Positions 7,838 through 24,076 of a stretch of 64,000 nucleotides of DNA are shown piece by piece. The position numbers and the translations under genes are program-made. Each line of letters opens with the position of its first letter. Positions within the stretch are counted from its first letter, which is position 1. The DNA is taken from positions 1-64,000 of the forward strand of contig JAJDBV010000024.1 of assembly GCA_029261165.1 (NCBI GenBank), read 5' to 3'. Source of the DNA: Nitrospirota bacterium. Its GTDB lineage: Bacteria > Nitrospirota > Nitrospiria > SBBL01 > JAADHI01. The notes under the pieces are model-generated. The model worked only from the letters and a program-made list of their open reading frames with translations. It was not told the origin of the DNA and searched no databases.

Positions 7838-7995
7838 GTAACTGTTCAGCATGCCTGGGTTTTGGCTTCGCGAGACCCATCCTTCAGGGCAAGGCACGAG
7901 GAGCGCAGAACCGTAACGTATGTGTCTATACGTGAGGATTCGAGCACCACAGCAACGCAGCCATTAAGGAAAAGGTGGGTATACTGAATAGTTAC
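7838..7995 (+). repeat. Dispersed inverted-repeat element, copy A (158 bp)
   Basis: First of three related elements (others at 11289 and 54558). Left end GTAACTGTTCAGCATGCC and the inverted right end GTAACTATTCAGTATACC match at most positions, differences being mainly transitions that could still pair as G-U in RNA. The interior holds the shared core TATACGTGAGGATTCGAG followed by ACCACAGCAACGC. TAATCAA occurs at 7830-7836 and again at 7996-8002, a possible 7-bp target duplication. The right end touches the stop codon of the sulfite-oxidase-like gene. It has no coding capacity, so it is either a MITE-like non-autonomous element or a REP-like structural repeat. Confidence 0.8.
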
Positions 7996-9017
7996 TAATC
8001 AACAAAGGTGATGACGGAGTGAAGCCCTGATGTCCCTGCGGGGAAGGCGCGGGCGATGAAGTCACTCTGAACGCGTCCGATGTGATCGACGGCACGGGAG
8101 GTGATTTGATAGGACCCGGCTTTCGGCCTTTTCCAGTTGTATTCCCAGAAGACCCAGGAATAAGGAGAGGGAGTCTTTTGCAATTTGGTCGGCACCCAGG
8201 TTTTTCCGCCGTCGAAAGTCAACTCGACGGTGCGGATGCCATTGTAACCCGAGCAGGCAAGGCCCCGAAGGGTGTAATCTCCGGTCACCGTATTATAGTC
8301 TCCGGGATCATCTATCCTTGAAGTGACTTTGATGGTCCCATCATCACTCCAACTCTTCTTTTGCCAATAGCCTTTGTAATCGTAATCAACCAACTCAATC
8401 TTGTAAAGCCACTTAACATTTTTAATGCCATAGATCCCGGGAACAACAGCGCGAAGCGGAAATCCGTGTTTCGTGGGCAGTTGTTTCCCATTCATCGCGT
8501 AGGCGAGGAAAACATCATAATTCAAAGCCCGATCAAGCGTGATGCTGTCGGAGTAGTCGTCGGTTCCGAACATCGCGACATCTACGACGGAAGAACGGGG
8601 CATGGTCTCTTCGATCAGCGATTTCAGGCTCACCCCGGTCCAAACCGCGTTGCTGATCTGCTCTCCGGCAGGCTCATTTTCAATGCACTGGAGGGTCACC
8701 ATTTTTTCCATGGATGGACGTTTGAGGATGTCATCATAGGTGAATCTCAAGGGTTTTCGGACTTTGCCTTTGATTTGTAAAGACCAGTTATCCACGTTGA
8801 TATTTTGAAAGCCCGCGTACTGAACAAGGTAAAAGTCTTCGTTAGAGGTGATAAAAGAAGGTTTTTTAGGAGGACGCGCAAGGAAACGCTTCATGAAAAA
8901 ATTGGCAGCCTCGGCCCTACCGGGTAAGAGTGCCGCCGTAATTCCTGCACCGGAATATCGAAGGAAGCGCCGTCGGCTTAAGGCGTCTGGGACGATGATG
9001 CCTGATTTTGTCTTCAT
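7995..9017 (-). CDS. Tat-exported sulfite oxidase-like molybdopterin oxidoreductase
   Basis: Periplasmic molybdenum enzyme (340 aa) of the sulfite oxidase/MsrP fold. The N-terminus holds a twin-arginine motif SRRRFLR (residues 14-20) followed by a hydrophobic h-region and an AEA cleavage site, so export is by Tat. The oxidoreductase domain shows VTLQCIENEPAGEQ with Cys111 as the expected Mo ligand, GFPLRAVVPGIYGIKNVKWL (molybdopterin binding) and WSDDGTIKVTSRID at the switch to the C-terminal Ig-like dimerisation domain, which includes RGLACSGYNGIRTVELTFDGG. It lacks a cytochrome domain, so an external electron acceptor is needed. Mo-cofactor genes moaC (9140) and moaA (16048) are close. Sulfite is the likely, not proven, substrate. 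Confidence 0.9.
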   Translation of the reverse strand: MKTKSGIIVPDALSRRRFLRYSGAGITAALLPGRAEAANFFMKRFLARPPKKPSFITSNEDFYLVQYAGFQNINVDNWSLQIKGKVRKPLRFTYDDILKRPSMEKMVTLQCIENEPAGEQISNAVWTGVSLKSLIEETMPRSSVVDVAMFGTDDYSDSITLDRALNYDVFLAYAMNGKQLPTKHGFPLRAVVPGIYGIKNVKWLYKIELVDYDYKGYWQKKSWSDDGTIKVTSRIDDPGDYNTVTGDYTLRGLACSGYNGIRTVELTFDGGKTWVPTKLQKTPSPYSWVFWEYNWKRPKAGSYQITSRAVDHIGRVQSDFIARAFPAGTSGLHSVITFVD

Positions 9018-9139
9018 ACTACGGTATTATAACGACCTTAAAAGAGCTTTGCAACCTGATATTAAATTGAGCAGGAACATAATTGACAGTCATTGATCCC
9101 TATGATAACCTCACTCCAATTTGACTGGGGGAGGGTAAT

Positions 9140-9649
9140 ATGGTTGATGTGGAACTGACCCATTTTAACCGGGAAGGACGCGCTAGAATGGTCGACGTCT
9201 CCGGGAAACCGGAAACGCATCGTACGGCTGTTGCGACCGGAATGGTATTCATGAATCCTGAAACCCTGGCAAGGATTGAAGAGGGGAAAATTGCAAAAGG
9301 GGATGTCCTGGCTGTGGCGCAGGTGGCCGGGGTGATGGGGGCCAAGAAGACCCCTGATCTGATCCCCATGTGCCATCCGCTTCTCATTACCAGTGTTGAC
9401 ATCGGATTTATCATTCATCAAAAAAAAGAGGATCAATCTGCGGCAATTGAAGTGACCGCAACGGCAAAGACCTCGGGACAAACTGGTGTCGAGATGGAGG
9501 CAATGACCGCAGTTTCCGTCACGGCCTTGACCATCTACGATATGTGTAAGGCCATTGACAAAGGAATCAGTTTCGGCCGGGTCGGTTTAATCTCCAAGAG
9601 TGGCGGCAAGTCAGGAAAATATACCCGCCCGGAACCGCTTCCTAGATAG
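9140..9649 (+). CDS. moaC: Cyclic pyranopterin monophosphate synthase
   Basis: Second enzyme of molybdenum cofactor synthesis: it converts the 3',8-cyclo-GTP made by MoaA (16048) into cyclic pyranopterin monophosphate. At 169 aa it has the normal family length. Signature segments are [17 protein letters not shown] at the N-terminus, [18 protein letters not shown] in the middle with the conserved His, [23 protein letters not shown] and [16 protein letters not shown] with the catalytic Lys region. The start has GGGGGAGGG about 6 nt upstream. It is divergent from the sulfite-oxidase-like gene that needs the cofactor, and 3 nt upstream of the phosphatase gene, so probably co-transcribed with it. 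Confidence 0.97.
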
Positions 9650-16047: not shown

Positions 16048-17043
16048 ATGCAACCCCTGGTCGATGCTTACCAGCGCGAAATCACATACATGCGTGTTTC
16101 TATTACTGATCGATGCAACCTGAGGTGCGTCTACTGTATGCCGGAGGAAGGGCTGGAGTGGACACCCAGCGACGAAATACTTTCATACGACGAACTCCTT
16201 CGAATTATCACCGTTGCCGCAAGGCGGGGGTTACGAAAGATCAGAATTACAGGTGGAGAACCGCTGGTTCGGAAGGGCGTCGTCGAATTCATCGATCGCG
16301 TTCATCGCGTTCCAGGGATCGAAGAAATTGCCTTAACGACAAACGCGGTCTTTCTGAAGGATATGGCCGCAGACCTTTTCAAGGCTGGTCTGCGCGGAAT
16401 CAACATCAGCATCGACTCCCTCAATCCAGACACCTTCGCAAAGATCGTTCGGCGGGATATCTTCCATAAGGTCTGGGAGGGGATTGAAGAAGCAGAACGG
16501 GTCGGGTTTACGCCCCTGAAACTCAATGTCGTCCTCCAGCAGGGGGTCAATGACCATGAGGCCATCGATTTTGTAAACCTTACCCGGACGAAACCCTACC
16601 ATGTCCGCTTCATTGAGTACATGCCTTGCGCCAATTGGGATACTTGGGTCAAGACCTACAAGCCTTTTCAGGCCGTTGTCGATGAGGTTGAGACCATGAC
16701 CGGGAAGATGATCCCGATAAACGGTGCGAATGAAGGGAATACTGGTCCCGCGGAAAACTTCCGGATTCCAGGCGCGCCGGGGATTGTCGGCTTCATTCAC
16801 GCCGTCAGCCATGACTTCTGTGATACCTGCAACCGTGTCCGTCTGACGGCAGATGGTCAGGTCCGTCCCTGCCTTTTTTCTGAGATCGCGGTCGATTTCA
16901 GAAATGCGCTCCGAAACGGATGCAGCGATGAAGAAATTGAAGGTCTTCTTGATCAGGTGCTTTATGTGAAACCGGAGTATCACGAGCTCGATATGATCCC
17001 GGAGGAGAAAAAACTTACCACGATGGTGAATCTTGGCGGATAA
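16048..17043 (+). CDS. moaA: GTP 3',8-cyclase (radical SAM)
   Basis: First enzyme of molybdenum cofactor synthesis, 331 aa. The N-terminal [4Fe-4S]/SAM cluster motif is DRCNLRCVYCMPEEG (CxxxCxxC), followed by RITGGEPLVRKG (SAM binding). The C-terminal cluster that binds GTP is FCDTCNRVRLTADGQVRPCL (CxxCx13C). The protein ends in the Gly-Gly tail that is essential in this family (MVNLGG). SD AGGAGG lies 7 nt before the ATG. It works directly before MoaC (9140), and the sulfite-oxidase-like enzyme at 7995 is a likely client. Other moa/moe genes are not in the window. Confidence 0.97.
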   Translation: MQPLVDAYQREITYMRVSITDRCNLRCVYCMPEEGLEWTPSDEILSYDELLRIITVAARRGLRKIRITGGEPLVRKGVVEFIDRVHRVPGIEEIALTTNAVFLKDMAADLFKAGLRGINISIDSLNPDTFAKIVRRDIFHKVWEGIEEAERVGFTPLKLNVVLQQGVNDHEAIDFVNLTRTKPYHVRFIEYMPCANWDTWVKTYKPFQAVVDEVETMTGKMIPINGANEGNTGPAENFRIPGAPGIVGFIHAVSHDFCDTCNRVRLTADGQVRPCLFSEIAVDFRNALRNGCSDEEIEGLLDQVLYVKPEYHELDMIPEEKKLTTMVNLGG

Positions 17044-17131: not shown

Positions 17132-18259
17132 GTGCACAAATCTAAATCTGAGAAAAGGCTTATCTCATCGGGGATTGCTGTGGCAACCCTATCGTTGGCG
17201 ATCTTTTCGTTTTCGGTGGGAGATGTCTATGCGCAAGCGAGCGACTTTTTTTCCAACACTCAGTCAACAGATAAGCGGGCGGGTACCGGTGCAGCGATTG
17301 CTGCCCCGGGGAGCATTGGTGCAACCAACCCTGGCTTCAACCCCTGCAGTGGGGCTGGGGCAACCCTTACCGCGGGGGAATGTACCGGCGTGCCCGATGC
17401 AAGTTCTCTGCTAAGCTCTGGAAATTTGACCGCCACGTTTCAAGAGTCCGGGCCGGGTGCAATTACGGATAATATGTTCGGCCTCGTTTCAGGTACAGCC
17501 TTGGGCAGTGATGGTCTAGCGGGAGGTGTAGGTGCTGCGGCTGATACCCCTACGACCAATTGCGCCCCGGCTTTTGGAACGGCGGGTTTCGATACTTCAG
17601 CCCTAGGTGGACTCAACGGCCTGAATTGTGGTGCGCTCCGAATTACTCCCGTCGTCCAGGGAATGACGATCCCGACCTTTCCCGTGACGAATAGTCTGGA
17701 CCAGGAATTAACGGGCAGTGCCAACCTTAACTTTGATTCCAGTCCAGCGACCAATACCCATACCGGTTTTGATATCCTGAATCGTTTTGTCTGGATTCCA
17801 GGGACTGCAGTGGGAAGTGGTACACCTATTGCCTGTGCTGCAGATGCCGGGGGGAGTGCCGCCACGCCGAATTTTTGCTCTGACCAGAAAATGAGGCAGG
17901 TGACGGCCATCAACGGGGTCGGGGGCACACAAGCAGTGCCAGTGCCTGCGGCAGACCAGGTCGTTGATTTGACCACGGTATTTCAAACCCTCGCCGAAGA
18001 TGATGTAACAGCCTTCCCTGCCGCCGCATTTAATGTGGTGGTTACCGGTACCATTACCGATCCAGATATGTCCGGGACCAGCGGCACCGGCTTCAGCCAA
18101 ACGATCGGGCTGACCTTCAGCCACAATGCCCTCAGCGGGACCGACACTCAGGTCTTTACCTGTGTGGCACAAGGGGCTGGGTTGCAGGAAGTCGGTTGTA
18201 GCGACTACCCGACTGCAATCACACAGACAGTCGGAAATACGACTGCACAGCTTCCCTAA
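17132..18259 (+). CDS. Secreted protein of unknown family, tandem paralogue 1
   Basis: Unrecognised exported protein of 375 residues, first of three related genes in a row. GTG start at 17132 with GGGGGG just upstream. Signal peptide: charged MHKSKSEKRL, hydrophobic AVATLSLAIFSFSV, cleavage near VYAQA. The mature part is rich in Gly, Ala, Thr, Ser and Asn with few charged residues. Landmarks shared with the next two genes: NPGFNPC, GPGAITDNMFG, CAP-GTAGFDTS, LNGLNCGALRI, QGMTIP, RFVWIP, RQVTAING, DPDMSGTSG and a final QTVGNTTAQLP. Cysteines occur in conserved positions, suggesting disulphides. No lipobox, no C-terminal anchor. Gene spacing (22 bp to the next) indicates one operon. Confidence 0.82.
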   Translation: MHKSKSEKRLISSGIAVATLSLAIFSFSVGDVYAQASDFFSNTQSTDKRAGTGAAIAAPGSIGATNPGFNPCSGAGATLTAGECTGVPDASSLLSSGNLTATFQESGPGAITDNMFGLVSGTALGSDGLAGGVGAAADTPTTNCAPAFGTAGFDTSALGGLNGLNCGALRITPVVQGMTIPTFPVTNSLDQELTGSANLNFDSSPATNTHTGFDILNRFVWIPGTAVGSGTPIACAADAGGSAATPNFCSDQKMRQVTAINGVGGTQAVPVPAADQVVDLTTVFQTLAEDDVTAFPAAAFNVVVTGTITDPDMSGTSGTGFSQTIGLTFSHNALSGTDTQVFTCVAQGAGLQEVGCSDYPTAITQTVGNTTAQLP

Positions 18260-18281
18260 ATTGAGTTGAAGGAGGTCGCGC

Positions 18282-19310
18282 ATGATGAGGTTTAAAGGGT
18301 ACTTCACGGATAGACTGGGCGTTTCCCTATTCCTCTCACTTGGCACGCTCGTCCTTTCAACCGGGGTGCTTCACGCCCAGGTGCCGGGACAGGACTTCTT
18401 TACCAATGTCATTCAGACGGAGTTGCGCAGTTTTGGTGGAGATGATCTGCCGGGCTTCAATCCCTGTGGTACAGGCGGCAAGGTGGCCACCGGAGGTCTG
18501 AGCTGTGATGATGCAGTTGCCGGTGTTCCGGCAGCCAACGACGGCCTTTTGAGCGGCACGAATGTGCTGGATACGACCGGGGCGACAGATGCGCCCGGCC
18601 TTTTTGCCCTATTGGGTCCGGGAGCCGTGACCGATAATATGTTCGGGAAGGTTCTGAAACCCTCTTCGCCTGGCGTCTGCGGTCCCGATGGGAGCATCGG
18701 AACGGACACGGTCGACGTTGCCCCAGGCACCGGTGTCCTTAATTGCGGAAATGTCCGCTTTGACCCGACCACACAGGGGCAAACGCTTCCGACGAGAGGC
18801 AATATCCTGACCAGTGTCATGTCAACGAATACACCGGTCGATTTACCGTTCTTGGCGGGGCTTGCTGCGGATAGGGGACACACCTCGAAGATGCAGAATG
18901 CCTTCGTATGGAATCCATTAAACAGTTCAGTGCTCCTTTCTACAGGGCAGGTCTGTGCGGCAAAAGAAGGGCAGGCACGCGTTTGCGGTTTTCAGTCCTT
19001 GGATGATGTGACCACTTTGAATTTGGCAAACAAGACAACATCGGTCAGCCTGACGGCATCCTGGACCACCGGTCAGACTGAGACGATTGCTGCGGGAGTT
19101 TTATCCTCAGCAATGACCGATGGACAGCCGGCCGTCACTTGGTCTTCTATCATCAGACAGGATGAACTGGGTGGAACGGGCGGGGTTTTTGAGCAGACGA
19201 CCTCGGGAAGCTTTAATTACCATGCTAATACAACATTTCCAACGACACAATATCCCACGGGGCTCAGTTTCAGTGATCGTGATATCACCACGGTTTTACC
19301 AAAACCATGA
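18282..19310 (+). CDS. Secreted protein of unknown family, tandem paralogue 2
   Basis: 342-residue exported protein, the most divergent of the three. The start has GGAGG upstream (AAGGAGGTCGCGC before ATGATG). A signal peptide runs to about residue 33 (VLHAQ). Shared landmarks: LPGFNPC, GPGAVTDNMFGKV, VLNCGNVRF, TTQGQTLPTRG, NAFVWNP, CGFQSLDDVTTL and DELGGTGGVFEQTTSGSF. It lacks the NCAP/RCAP segment and the C-terminal QVF-C...C tail seen in the other two, so one disulphide pair is probably missing. Function unknown; no enzymatic motif is visible. Confidence 0.82.
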   Translation: MMRFKGYFTDRLGVSLFLSLGTLVLSTGVLHAQVPGQDFFTNVIQTELRSFGGDDLPGFNPCGTGGKVATGGLSCDDAVAGVPAANDGLLSGTNVLDTTGATDAPGLFALLGPGAVTDNMFGKVLKPSSPGVCGPDGSIGTDTVDVAPGTGVLNCGNVRFDPTTQGQTLPTRGNILTSVMSTNTPVDLPFLAGLAADRGHTSKMQNAFVWNPLNSSVLLSTGQVCAAKEGQARVCGFQSLDDVTTLNLANKTTSVSLTASWTTGQTETIAAGVLSSAMTDGQPAVTWSSIIRQDELGGTGGVFEQTTSGSFNYHANTTFPTTQYPTGLSFSDRDITTVLPKP

Positions 19311-19335
19311 TCTCACCTATAGTGGAGGTTAGGGG

Positions 19336-20472
19336 ATGAAAAGCCTTTACAACGTCTTGGCACTCCTTGTCATTGTTGGAATATTCACACCCTCAGGGCT
19401 CACGTATGCCGTTGATGCAAATTTCAATTCACAGCTGAGCAATATACGCTCGGCGGCTTCTGGGGTTCCCACCGATCCAACCTTGGGATTTGACCCCTGC
19501 AAGGATGGCACGAATACTGCTGGAGTATGCGGTGGTGCCGTGGCGGCAGGGGCATTGTTGTCTACCGTAAATGTTGGTACTACCGGGACGCCCGGTATTT
19601 TTTCAACATTGGGTCCCGGCGCAATCACGGACAATATGTTCGGAATTATTTCCGGCCCCGCGTTGGGTGCGAATGGCGCGACGGGGGGTGCAGGGGCGAA
19701 TGATGGTGATACGCCCACGACGAGGTGCGCCCCGGGAACGGGAACGGCAAATTTTGATACCAGCAACCCCACAGTAAACCTTAACGGCCTGAACTGCGGC
19801 AGCATACGAATCAATGCCACACAGCAGGGCCAGACCTTTCCAGCAGGACCGAACACCTTAGGCCTGCAGGGAAATGGGACTGTCAACACGGTGACGAAGA
19901 ATATGTCCTTTATCGCCGACAATTGCCCAATCGGTGTCTGCCCGGGAAATCCACACGTTGGTTTTAATTTAACAAATAACTTCAGTTTTCGGATGAACAC
20001 CGATGCGAGTAATGTTGCAATTCCTGGTGAGGCAACGACAACTTCATCGCAGGTCATCCGGCAGGTGACGGGTGTAAACCCAAACGCCGTCATCGGAACC
20101 CTTACTGTGCCGGGGGGTGGAGACCAGTTGTTTGAGGTGACAAGCAACTTTACGGCTTTGTCCCCGGATACAGGTAATGGAGATCCGGCAGCAGACAGAG
20201 GTCTGGATGGGATATTTGGGACGCCGGACGACACAAAAATTACTGTGAATTGGACGCAAAGAATTGAAGATCCTGACCAGTCAGGAACCTCGGGTGTCAA
20301 ATTTTTACAGTCCCTTTCAGGAAGCTTTGTCCGTGATGCCCAATTCGGGGGACTTTCTCAGGTCTTTGATTGTCCTAGTGGTTCTACAGCAACGACGACC
20401 AATATTTGTACCCAATATCCAAATGGAGCAAGCCAGACAGCCGGAGACGTCGCCGGCGCAAATCTCCCCTGA
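19336..20472 (+). CDS. Secreted protein of unknown family, tandem paralogue 3
   Basis: 378-residue exported protein, closest to paralogue 1. Signal peptide MKSLYNVLALLVIVGIF to about residue 25 (TYAVD); SD GGAGG before the ATG. Landmarks: TLGFDPC, GPGAITDNMFGII, TRCAPGTGTANFDTS, LNGLNCGSIRI, QQGQTFPAG, RQVTGVNPNAV, DPDQSGTSGVKFLQS and the tail SQTAGDVAGANLP. It contains a DPAADRGLDGIFGTPDDT stretch that looks like a short calcium-type Asp/Gly loop, absent from paralogue 1. A strong hairpin 30 bp after the stop closes the operon. A large minus-strand open frame opposite it (19347-20300) is a composition artefact. Confidence 0.82.
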   Translation: MKSLYNVLALLVIVGIFTPSGLTYAVDANFNSQLSNIRSAASGVPTDPTLGFDPCKDGTNTAGVCGGAVAAGALLSTVNVGTTGTPGIFSTLGPGAITDNMFGIISGPALGANGATGGAGANDGDTPTTRCAPGTGTANFDTSNPTVNLNGLNCGSIRINATQQGQTFPAGPNTLGLQGNGTVNTVTKNMSFIADNCPIGVCPGNPHVGFNLTNNFSFRMNTDASNVAIPGEATTTSSQVIRQVTGVNPNAVIGTLTVPGGGDQLFEVTSNFTALSPDTGNGDPAADRGLDGIFGTPDDTKITVNWTQRIEDPDQSGTSGVKFLQSLSGSFVRDAQFGGLSQVFDCPSGSTATTTNICTQYPNGASQTAGDVAGANLP

Positions 20473-20501
20473 GAGCCAATTAATATTTATTAGTAAGGTT
20501 T

Positions 20502-20542
20502 GTAATAAAGAAAGAGGCCATAACGGCCTCTTTCTTTATTAC
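20502..20542 (+). terminator. Perfect 18-bp hairpin, bidirectional terminator
   Basis: GTAATAAAGAAAGAGGCC, 5-nt loop ATAAC, then the exact complement GGCCTCTTTCTTTATTAC. The GC-rich top and U-rich descending arm suit intrinsic termination from the left; the mirror composition makes it plausible from the right. It follows the three secreted-protein genes. Confidence 0.8.
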
Positions 20543-20616
20543 AGGCATCACAGTGGCCCTTCCCTTTCATAGGGCAGGCCGTGTGGAGTGAAAAGCAGTT
20601 CAAGCCTCTTTTTTTA

Positions 20617-20652: not shown

Positions 20653-22992
20653 ATGAAAATCTGCTTATTTCGATATCGCCCAGCCTTTTTATTTCTCATC
20701 CTCCTCTCGGTCTTTCTCGCAAGTGGATGCAAGAGCAAGAGCACCAGCCCCGCAGTCACTATTCCAGGTCAAACAGATAATATCCGTCCCACAGTAACAT
20801 CATTTTCACCAACCGGTACTTCAGTCCCAACAACGGTTACGATGATCACGGCCACTTTTAGTGAACTGATGGAACATGCCCTTTTGTCAACAAACACATT
20901 TATTGTCATTGTGGATGGAACGGTAATTCCAGGAAATATCACTGCCTTGGACAATCCTGCGACAAATACCACCACGGTCACATTTACACCAACCTCCGGC
21001 TCTCTTGACTCAGGGAAGACTTATGCGATCACGATCACTACTGCTGTCGAAGATCTCGCTATGAATAAAATGTTTTCCAATCAGGCTTGGGCCTTTACTG
21101 TCGGAACACTACCGGATACCACGCCACCTGCGTTTACAGGTATCGTCAGTGCAACTGGAACCAGTACGAGCACGATCTCCCTCTCCTGGAGTGCTGCCAC
21201 GGATGTTGGTAATGTAACGCCTCAAAACCAGATTCGCTATGAGATCTGTCAGTCGGAAATTCTGGTTCCTCCTGGGACGAATGCAGGAGAATGCCAGGCA
21301 GCGACTTTCCCCGCAGCAGGCGGGACGGTCACCCGCCTTGAAACGACGGGTGGACAGACGACGCTCGGCGTGACTGGGCTGAAGAAAAACACGACTTACG
21401 ATTTTGTTGTCCGCGCAAAAGATTTATCGAACAATATCTCTGGAAACATCGAGCAAAGATCGGCAACGACCTTTGGTGATCCTATCCCGGCAAGTGGTGG
21501 TACGCTCAATATCGACCTTGGAAGAACCGCGTCAAATCCCTCAATCACCCTTGTCGGTACGACCCCTTATCTGGCCTGGGAGGAGTCCAGCAATAACATC
21601 TATTTCAAGACCTTTGACGGGACGAATTGGAACGGTTCATCCACGCCGATCAATGCGGCGGGAAAAACGGGTCAACAGCCCCGCCTGGCCTCTGATGGGG
21701 CAACAACGCCAACGGCCTACCTGACCTTTACAGAATGCGATCTTCTTGGAGACTTTTGCAAAGTTGTTGTCAAAAAAGATGTCGGCGGGTGGCAAACGGT
21801 TGGGACTGCGCTTAATCTTAATATCGATCAGTCCAAGTCAGCGACCGACAGCGCGATTGCCTTTGACAGCAACAATACGCCCTATGTCGTCTGGACCGAA
21901 TTTGAGACGGTTAATACTGTCGAAGTACGTCATATTTTTGTAAAACATTTCGATGCGGCGACATCGTTATGGGTCCAGGATGGGGCAACAAGCCTCAACG
22001 TCAATCCAAACCAGGATGGATTCAACCCCTCAATTGCCATCAACGGGACGTCGATTAATGTTTCATGGACCGAATGCCTTTTTCCGACCAATTGCCAGAT
22101 TTATGTTAAGAAATGGCTTGGCAGCGCAACGCCCCCATCCACCTCGGTAAACTTAACTGGCGGAACGACTGGAACGGATCCTGACGATCCCTCGCTCTCC
22201 TTCAATGGTGGGACCCTCTACGCGGCATGGCATGAAACTGGTCAACTCCATGTCAGGAGAGAAGAGACGGATGGAAGCTTTACCGATATTGAAAACATGG
22301 GCTTTGTCGTCAATGGTTCCAATAATACGCTCTTATTCAATGATGGTGCGGTCCGAACAGCAACAATTACGCCAAGTTCATATACGACGGGGGATGCGCT
22401 TGCCGCGGGACTGAAGAGTGCTCTTGAAAGTGCCAATGCAGATACGGATACCTATACGGTGAGCTTCAACACAACAACAAAGCAATTTATGATCACAAAT
22501 GATGCGACAAATGCCAATCCGCTGACCCTCCTCTTTGGCAATGTCGGAACCACGGCGGAAGAAATTATTGGGTTTGATTCTGTTGACACGGCTGTCATTG
22601 CGGTCGGCGGCTCTATTACAAGTGACTTTGATGCACAGACCCTGACTGTTCCGCTTCCGTCGAATACGCCATTGGCCGGGACAAGCTCCGCGCAGGGTCC
22701 CTACCTTGCGTTTGCGAAGGTTCCCAATTTCCCGACCTCTAATCGCCCCGAGTTGTTTGTCCGCTTATGGGACAACACCAGCTCAACATGGACAAGTGTC
22801 GTGGATGGAAAGCTGAATATGACCACAGCTGATCCCTCTCCCCCGATTAACGCTTCCATCGCCGTCTCTTCTTCGGGGTCGGTATTTGTTGCCTGGGTCG
22901 AGGCTGGGCTATGTCTTGACCCCAGCATTCCAAACAATTGTGGGATTACCGGCTCACCGATCCCTCAATTATATGTCAAACAGCTAAAGTAA
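20653..22992 (+). CDS. Large surface lipoprotein with Ig-like, Fn3 and propeller-type repeats
   Basis: 779-residue lipoprotein. The N-terminus is a type II signal (FLFLILLSVFLASGC, lipid Cys at residue 26). Residues about 40-155 form a bacterial Ig-like (SbsA/Big_5) domain: NIRPTVTSFSPTGTSVP, ITATFSELM, WAFTVG. Residues about 160-270 look like fibronectin type III (DTTPPAFTGIVSA, TISLSWSAATD, YDFVVRAKDLSNN). The rest holds recurring blocks with NPSI.....YLAWEE, KSATDSAIAFDS...YVVWTE, FNPSIAINGTSINVSWTE, DPSLSFNGGTLYAAWHE and INASIAVSSSGSVFVAWVE, a beta-propeller type repeat. An inserted region of about 100 residues (NNTLLFNDGAVRTATITPSSY) interrupts the repeats and resembles flagellin/hook-type IN modules. 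Binding or adhesion is likely; ligand unknown. Confidence 0.85.
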   Translation: MKICLFRYRPAFLFLILLSVFLASGCKSKSTSPAVTIPGQTDNIRPTVTSFSPTGTSVPTTVTMITATFSELMEHALLSTNTFIVIVDGTVIPGNITALDNPATNTTTVTFTPTSGSLDSGKTYAITITTAVEDLAMNKMFSNQAWAFTVGTLPDTTPPAFTGIVSATGTSTSTISLSWSAATDVGNVTPQNQIRYEICQSEILVPPGTNAGECQAATFPAAGGTVTRLETTGGQTTLGVTGLKKNTTYDFVVRAKDLSNNISGNIEQRSATTFGDPIPASGGTLNIDLGRTASNPSITLVGTTPYLAWEESSNNIYFKTFDGTNWNGSSTPINAAGKTGQQPRLASDGATTPTAYLTFTECDLLGDFCKVVVKKDVGGWQTVGTALNLNIDQSKSATDSAIAFDSNNTPYVVWTEFETVNTVEVRHIFVKHFDAATSLWVQDGATSLNVNPNQDGFNPSIAINGTSINVSWTECLFPTNCQIYVKKWLGSATPPSTSVNLTGGTTGTDPDDPSLSFNGGTLYAAWHETGQLHVRREETDGSFTDIENMGFVVNGSNNTLLFNDGAVRTATITPSSYTTGDALAAGLKSALESANADTDTYTVSFNTTTKQFMITNDATNANPLTLLFGNVGTTAEEIIGFDSVDTAVIAVGGSITSDFDAQTLTVPLPSNTPLAGTSSAQGPYLAFAKVPNFPTSNRPELFVRLWDNTSSTWTSVVDGKLNMTTADPSPPINASIAVSSSGSVFVAWVEAGLCLDPSIPNNCGITGSPIPQLYVKQLK

Positions 22993-23167: not shown

Positions 23168-24076
23168 ATGAGTAAAAATGCGATTCTTGGAATGATTGGC
23201 AGCATGGTTTTTCTGGTCGTCTTGATGGCCGTTGCTTTGATATACGAGTCGATAAAGTCAAACCGGGTTCGGGAGGCAGCTAAGAAGATTGAGAACCCCA
23301 AGGAAGCAATCGTTGAGGTTGAGAGGGTCGATTTTAGTGCGTTTGAGAAAATTGTGGGGGGAGACGCCAGAGAGATGGTCCTCATCCCGGCCGGATCGTT
23401 TACAATGGGAGGCGGTGATGTTGGCGATTTTGACGAACAGCCCCAGCGCGTCATCTATCTCGACCCATTCTATATGGACATTTATGAAGTCACGAACGCA
23501 GATTACCGACGGTATACAAAGATGCTGAAAAAACCTGACCCTGTTGTCCCGGTATTTGAAGATGATCCCAATCTTCTGAAAGGGGACAAACAACCGGTCG
23601 TGGGTGTCACCTGGATTAATTCTGCGGCCTATTGTAAATGGGCCAGAAAACGACTTCCAACTGAGGCAGAATGGGAAAAAGCGGCCCGGGGGGAAAACGG
23701 AGGAAAATGGCCCTGGGGAGATTCCTTTAGCTCAACGCTGGCGAACGGTCTGGGAGAAGCAGATGGGTACAAATATTCCGCGCCTGTAGGCAGTTTTGAG
23801 CGGGGAAGAAGTCCTTACGGCCTCTATGATATGGCCGGAAATGTCTCAGAATGGGTTGAAGACTGGTACGTTCAAGACTACTACAAAGACGCGCCTTTTA
23901 AGAATCCGAAAGGCCCTGAAGATCCGGGGATTATTCAGGTACTCTCATATCGGGGGGGGTCTTTTCACAACAGCTCTCACGATCTTCGCGCCTCAAAACG
24001 TTTTGGAGGCGCACATCCGAAGCGGGGAGAGTCCACGGTCGGTTTCCGCTGTGCGAAAGATTTTGGTTCTGATTAG
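23168..24076 (+). CDS. Membrane-anchored SUMF1/formylglycine-generating-enzyme-fold protein
   Basis: 302 residues with an N-terminal membrane helix (GMIGSMVFLVVLMAVALIY) and a SUMF1 domain from about residue 70: EMVLIPAGSFTMGGGDVGDFDEQPQRV, YEVTNADYRRY, PVVGVTWINSAAYCKWARKRLPTEAEWEKAARG, WPWGD, NVSEWVEDWY and STVGFRCAKD. True formylglycine-generating enzymes need two closely spaced cysteines near the C-terminal part; only one Cys is present there (GFRCA), so this is more likely a structural or regulatory member of the fold than a sulfatase activator. GGAGG lies 11 nt before the start. It probably faces the periplasm. Confidence 0.88.
   Translation: MSKNAILGMIGSMVFLVVLMAVALIYESIKSNRVREAAKKIENPKEAIVEVERVDFSAFEKIVGGDAREMVLIPAGSFTMGGGDVGDFDEQPQRVIYLDPFYMDIYEVTNADYRRYTKMLKKPDPVVPVFEDDPNLLKGDKQPVVGVTWINSAAYCKWARKRLPTEAEWEKAARGENGGKWPWGDSFSSTLANGLGEADGYKYSAPVGSFERGRSPYGLYDMAGNVSEWVEDWYVQDYYKDAPFKNPKGPEDPGIIQVLSYRGGSFHNSSHDLRASKRFGGAHPKRGESTVGFRCAKDFGSD

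Follow-up and report, generated by a model that had tools for sequence, protein, structure and literature searches.

A tandem array of predicted exported proteins next to moaA represents an undescribed family in the Nitrospirota order Troglogloeales/SBBL01

The window analyzed here is a 64,000-nt stretch of DNA from a Nitrospirota bacterium (GenBank assembly GCA_029261165.1, contig JAJDBV010000024.1, positions 1 to 64,000). Three tandem open reading frames of 375, 342 and 378 aa, pointed out in an earlier reading of the bare sequence (the original prediction), are present where they had been placed; the encoded proteins are referred to as family A (Table 1). The three genes have good Shine-Dalgarno sequences and are separated by 22 bp (genes 1 and 2) and 25 bp (genes 2 and 3). 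They had been thought to form an operon of their own, which we could not uphold: moaA lies 88 bp upstream in the same direction and no promoter-like site was seen in the gap. The perfect terminator assigned to the array end was found as a perfect hairpin (-30.5 kcal/mol, z -9.4). An Rfam search of the array region gave no match. The adjoining gene encodes a putative lipoprotein of the expected Ig/Fn3 type, with matches to the Big_5 and Fn3 domains and a lipobox (LASGC) read by eye. Elsewhere in the same genome (G000 contig 49, 12010-15468), a 1221-codon open frame contains at least 10 stretches matching the N-terminal Ig-like region of this lipoprotein. Within the window, moaC, moaA and a molybdopterin-binding oxidoreductase gene (7995-9649 and 16048-17043) are found within 9 kb of one another.

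Table 1. Features of the family A array, its neighbors in the window, and family B genes found beside family A genes at other loci (locus:positions).
Feature	Location	Strand	Remarks
moaA (GTP 3',8-cyclase)	16048..17043	+	precedes the array at a constant position in each of the three genera
Family A gene 1	17132..18259	+	375 aa, GTG start, predicted signal peptide ~aa 1-34; extra copy without clear ortholog
Gene 1 signature GPGAITDNMFG	17450..17482	+	near-invariant across family A
Family A gene 2	18282..19310	+	342 aa, predicted signal peptide ~aa 1-32; ortholog of the 'DFF' group in other genera
Gene 2 signature GPGAVTDNMFG	18615..18647	+	near-invariant across family A
Gene 2 C-terminal region, six long beta strands	18816..19217	+	low-confidence model
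Family A gene 3	19336..20472	+	378 aa, signal peptide ~aa 1-25 by homology; ortholog of the 'VDxN' group in other genera
Gene 3 signature GPGAITDNMFG	19612..19644	+	near-invariant across family A
Intrinsic-terminator hairpin at array end	20500..20544	+	20-bp perfect stem, 5-base loop
Big_5/Fn3 putative lipoprotein	20653..22992	+	ortholog (45-48% identity) beside six-gene Manganitrophus arrays; absent from two-gene arrays
FGE-sulfatase-domain gene	23168..24076	+	directly after moaA in array-less sister genus; marks the empty site
Family B genes, predicted exported	L024:5048-6106, L034:5578-6561, L035:3824-4765, L036:4312-5226		beside family A gene
Family B genes, predicted exported	L033:4000-5178, L031:5464-6318, L032:7664-8536, L037:4154-5044		beside family A gene

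The three proteins are related to each other, as had been proposed. BLAST comparison of the mature chains gave E values of 1e-24 to 1e-27 for gene 1 versus gene 3 and about 1e-12 (better direction) for gene 2 versus genes 1 and 3. The matches score 42 to 106 bits, whereas none of 1500 shuffled queries exceeded 26.9 bits, and the mature chains are thus homologous beyond composition. Identity to gene 1 in the full-length alignment is 36 to 42%. Most of the predicted motifs are shared (GF(N/D)PC, GPGA(I/V)TDNMFG, LNCG, QGxT, (Q/D)VT and SGTSG/GGTGG); the exception is WxP, which is restricted to genes 1 and 2, with FSFRMN in gene 3. The family A signature was defined as GPGA(I/V/L)TDNMF and is carried by most members. 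The window proteins have this signature, an N-terminal (D/x)FFxNTQ-type segment, paired Cys and a predicted six-strand C-terminal region. The dN/dS ratio between Manganitrophus family A orthologs is 0.05 to 0.15; because of this purifying selection, family A is considered a real, constrained coding sequence.

Searches against Pfam and NCBIfam profiles gave no score near a curated cut-off, whether for the window trio or for alignments of 23 members and of 18 mature members, in agreement with the earlier statement that the proteins belong to no described family. Among the results named beforehand as overturning the prediction was a profile hit in an already described family, and none appeared. 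In PDB sequences we found only 24-residue matches to LHCI (light-harvesting) chains (best E 4.6e-4), in which no stretch passed alone. No relative was found in phage records by tblastn with gene 1 or in viral contigs scanned with the family A alignment.

Iterating a profile search over the fetched loci brought together 41 family A members, all within one Nitrospirota order, Troglogloeales/SBBL01. The carriers are the window's genome, two Oslofjord-tunnel MAGs (OFTM244 and OFTM308) and six Manganitrophus genomes. In a profile search of 58 relatives these nine genomes gave matches, i.e., half of the 18 genomes of the order, and among 396 Nitrospirota genomes the matches were confined to the same three genera. 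A scan of 84,980 species, which used a single conserved eight-residue pattern and could miss very distant relatives, also found only Nitrospirota: Manganitrophus GAC4, a Manganitrophaceae bin, bin nzgw269, OFTM244 and OFTM308. The Oslofjord tunnel study reported Cyc2 and PCC (porin-cytochrome) homologs in five SBBL01 MAGs (PMC11442690), among which OFTM244 and OFTM308 may be included. A heme-motif scan was tried as a tracker of the porin-cytochrome link and was discarded as not informative, the motifs being present with and without family A.

The number of family A copies following moaA is zero in the sister genus, two in OFTM244 and OFTM308, three in the window and six in Manganitrophus. The window has the order RND transporter, outer-membrane protein, moaA, three family A genes, lipoprotein and FGE-domain gene. 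Manganitrophus has RND transporter, outer-membrane protein, moaA, six family A genes and lipoprotein, and the two tunnel MAGs have moaA, two family A genes and the FGE gene. In three sister-genus genomes (G002, G005 and G006) moaA is followed by the FGE gene with about 180 to 240 bp in between, an empty site. For the sister genus, loss of the array is the simpler explanation, given that Manganitrophus, a member of a different family in the order, also carries it after moaA; alternatively, the array may have arrived later. The tree places gene 2 with the first member of the tunnel-MAG pairs and with the fifth family A gene of Manganitrophus (support 100/98), and gene 3 with the member that closes each array (88/86); gene 1 is placed without support. 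Since genes 2 and 3 group with orthologs found in the same order in other genera, it was concluded that the ordered pair is ancestral. The trio therefore cannot be regarded as a unit, as it originally was: it contains an old ordered pair common to three genera, at a site where the copy number varies. The association with the lipoprotein in other genomes held in part. It is kept in Manganitrophus and absent from the two-copy arrays, and the lipoprotein is therefore not an obligate partner.

A second family, family B, was found next to family A at other loci. In OFTM244, in OFTM308, in a Manganitrophaceae bin and at a second locus in the window's genome (G000 contig 86), a family B gene comes after a family A gene. 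In other Manganitrophus genomes, a third locus has one B gene adjacent to one A gene. All genomes that carry family A also carry family B, for which two sister-genus genomes gave weak matches, and the Cys count of family B is even in all eight proteins counted. It has no match in Pfam, and no homology between the two families was detected by profile comparison. Neither family was matched in any library searched, and both are so far undescribed. A decayed A+B pair, made up of a truncated A gene and B fragments after it, is seen in one Manganitrophus genome (G014 contig 11, L061:4530-5180 and downstream). In Manganitrophus GAC4 both B genes (G017:C1:3247527-3248383 and 3717596-3718473) are split over frames due to decay or sequencing error. 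The third A+B locus of Manganitrophus also has Fn3 proteins of about 1500 aa (L031:25-4563 and L032:9435-13952) and a 277-aa Fn3 protein, and L031 has a DUF5122 propeller protein as well. Contig 86 of the window's genome also encodes a 1574-aa protein (L060:829-5553) that has numerous TPR repeats and, at its C-terminus, a DUF1302 outer-membrane domain; a LolA-like gene and the gene of a distant family A relative (L060:5691-6554) are nearby.

Signal peptides were predicted in essentially all family A members by a simple script (not SignalP), in line with the export originally predicted. The low charge and high Gly/Thr/Asn content are also borne out: the mature chains have 8 to 15% charged residues and 36 to 45% Gly, Thr, Asn and Ser combined, and they are acidic (pI 4.1 to 4.7). 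In a scan of the aligned members, most lack a hydrophobic anchor in the mature part. No LPxTG or PEP-CTERM motif is present in family A members, and no SLH or other anchor domain was matched. The CxxCH heme motif, the mark of a c-type cytochrome, is absent from 23 members. Proline is the last or next-to-last residue in 20 of the 23 aligned members, mostly the very last. Codon adaptation to ribosomal proteins ranks the three genes 35, 43 and 50 among 51 window genes, in a genome of weak overall codon bias. High expression is not supported by these ranks, and the low adaptation does not point to a protein as abundant as coat proteins usually are.

The conserved cysteines of the original prediction are seen as aligned Cys columns. 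After predicted cleavage the Cys count is even in all 23 aligned members, and the columns come and go as neighboring pairs: 127/140, 241/268, 350/363 as against 458/475, and 656/668. Pairs 350/363 and 458/475 largely replace one another between the two ortholog groups. Because the counts are even and the columns are paired, it is presumed that the cysteines are completely bonded between sequence neighbors outside the cytoplasm. Parity is weaker evidence than it appears, since the members are related and an even count was also found in 26 of 37 other Cys-containing exported proteins used as control. The column pairing is thus the stronger part of the argument. DsbB and VKOR were not found in the window's genome, which was counted against a disulfide-stapled protein.

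AlphaFold models were made for gene 2 and for the 302-aa OFTM308 ortholog of gene 3 with 18 sequences each. The gene 2 model has a pLDDT of 51.5 overall and about 50 to 75 in the C-terminal strand region; the OFTM308 model has 56.2 overall, with strand blocks up to 83. Both are low-confidence models with six long C-terminal strands and an undefined N-terminal half. As to the common fold to be checked, the two models agree, at low confidence, in the six strands. A fold search of both models against PDB and viral libraries found nothing at E <= 0.001. With models of such low confidence, the lack of a fold match is weak evidence for a new fold.

The surface-layer-type or structural nature first suggested for the trio is putative: no SLH or other anchor motif was matched, and codon usage shows no sign of very high expression. 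We tentatively consider family A to be an acidic, disulfide-stapled surface or matrix protein with a structural role, a reading that may quite possibly be correct. Family A proteins would be exported by Sec and cut by signal peptidase I, and they are presumably located beyond the inner membrane. Outside the cytoplasm they would adopt a two-part fold, with the signature motifs and loop-closing disulfides in the N-terminal half and an antiparallel beta sheet at the C-terminus. The anchor-less proteins would then serve as structural building blocks at the cell surface or in the extracellular matrix, as part of a coat, a filament or a matrix. The paralogs at the moaA site may form a mixed set. At another locus a further family A member may work with the unrelated family B protein encoded alongside, a presumed partnership.

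A structural role at the surface or in a matrix is taken as the most likely one because the proteins carry no anchor. An unlikely alternative is that the proteins are secreted acidic metal or mineral binders, e.g., in Mn(II) binding or Mn oxide seeding, within a Mn-based energy metabolism. The strong acidity of the chains is consistent with such binding, as is the confinement of family A to an order that includes Mn(II)-oxidizing Manganitrophus and the Oslofjord-tunnel MAGs, together with the Cyc2 and PCC homologs reported in five SBBL01 MAGs (PMC11442690). The restriction to the order may, however, be plain ancestry, and the sister genus in the same family has similar multiheme cytochrome motifs and yet no array. 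Furthermore, the chains have no metal-site signature, and proteins of this kind are not named in the published list of Mn-oxidation candidate genes (PMC9040806). It is rather unlikely that the proteins are surface adhesins or glycan-binding proteins whose paralogs differ in ligand: no carbohydrate-binding or adhesin family was matched and there is no anchor, although the predicted beta-rich secreted chains, the paralog expansion, the length-variable loops and the Fn3/Big_5/propeller proteins adjoining several family A loci would suit them.

Two readings drawn from the membrane context have very little probability. The proteins could be periplasmic or secreted factors of the neighboring RND/LolA-like/outer-membrane transport genes, since both the window and Manganitrophus have an RND transporter gene and a putative outer-membrane protein gene immediately before moaA, and a LolA-like gene is close to the window array as well as to the second locus. 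These neighbors are missing from the two-gene arrays, and we regard this reading as very improbable. Least probable of the readings considered is that of small outer-membrane beta barrels. BAM substrates are expected to end in an aromatic residue (the C-terminal beta signal); no family A member does, most ending in proline. The six long antiparallel strands of the low-confidence models would suit a barrel, and very weak fold matches to OmpX and PagP (E about 0.8 to 3) were seen among many others, none of them at E 0.001. An even set of paired Cys would also be unusual for barrels.

To our knowledge, the order includes the only known manganese-oxidizing chemolithoautotrophs. It is improbable that the array is the first dedicated extracellular scaffold of Mn-oxidizing Nitrospirota, a matrix for Mn oxide nodules with the copy number tracking lifestyle. 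If a matrix or mineral scaffold were confirmed, a genome would be connected with nodule formation; if not, the array adds another set of exported proteins peculiar to a single lineage. Proteins that are secreted, lineage-specific and Cys-paired are already known as a type. In either case two families with no library match are added to a poorly known order, and they come with concrete handles: a fixed site with 0, 2, 3 or 6 copies, even and paired cysteines, and an orthologous order.

Family A overlaps in lineage with the Manganitrophaceae Mn-oxidation candidates Cyc2, PCC_1 and TO_2 (PMC9040806). It differs from them in having no heme motif, in not being a candidate in that study and in being absent from the sister genus. 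A parallel to the TPR/beta-barrel secretion systems (Slam, type XI) is the TPR protein with the DUF1302 barrel that the window's genome encodes close to its second locus; the resemblance to Slam is in the TPR part only, with no Slam barrel match, and no such TPR/barrel gene adjoins the moaA arrays. Chaperone-usher and donor-strand fiber subunits (type 1 pilins, TasA/camelysin-type) may resemble family A as tandem paralogous exported beta-rich subunits in which a conserved segment comes right after the signal peptide. A donor-strand subunit has an incomplete Ig-like fold that is completed by the N-terminal strand of the next subunit. Family A has six strands and a conserved N-terminal segment in the low-confidence models, but it shows no sequence or fold match to these subunits and is about twice the length of a pilin, and no chaperone or usher gene was seen beside the array. 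Surface-layer proteins form an ordered array on the cell surface and are highly abundant. Family A differs from them in the lack of an SLH or other anchor domain match, in its several predicted disulfides and in the absence of any sign of very high expression; it shares with surface-layer and secreted matrix proteins the acidic, low-charge, Gly/Thr/Asn/Ser-rich composition and the predicted export.
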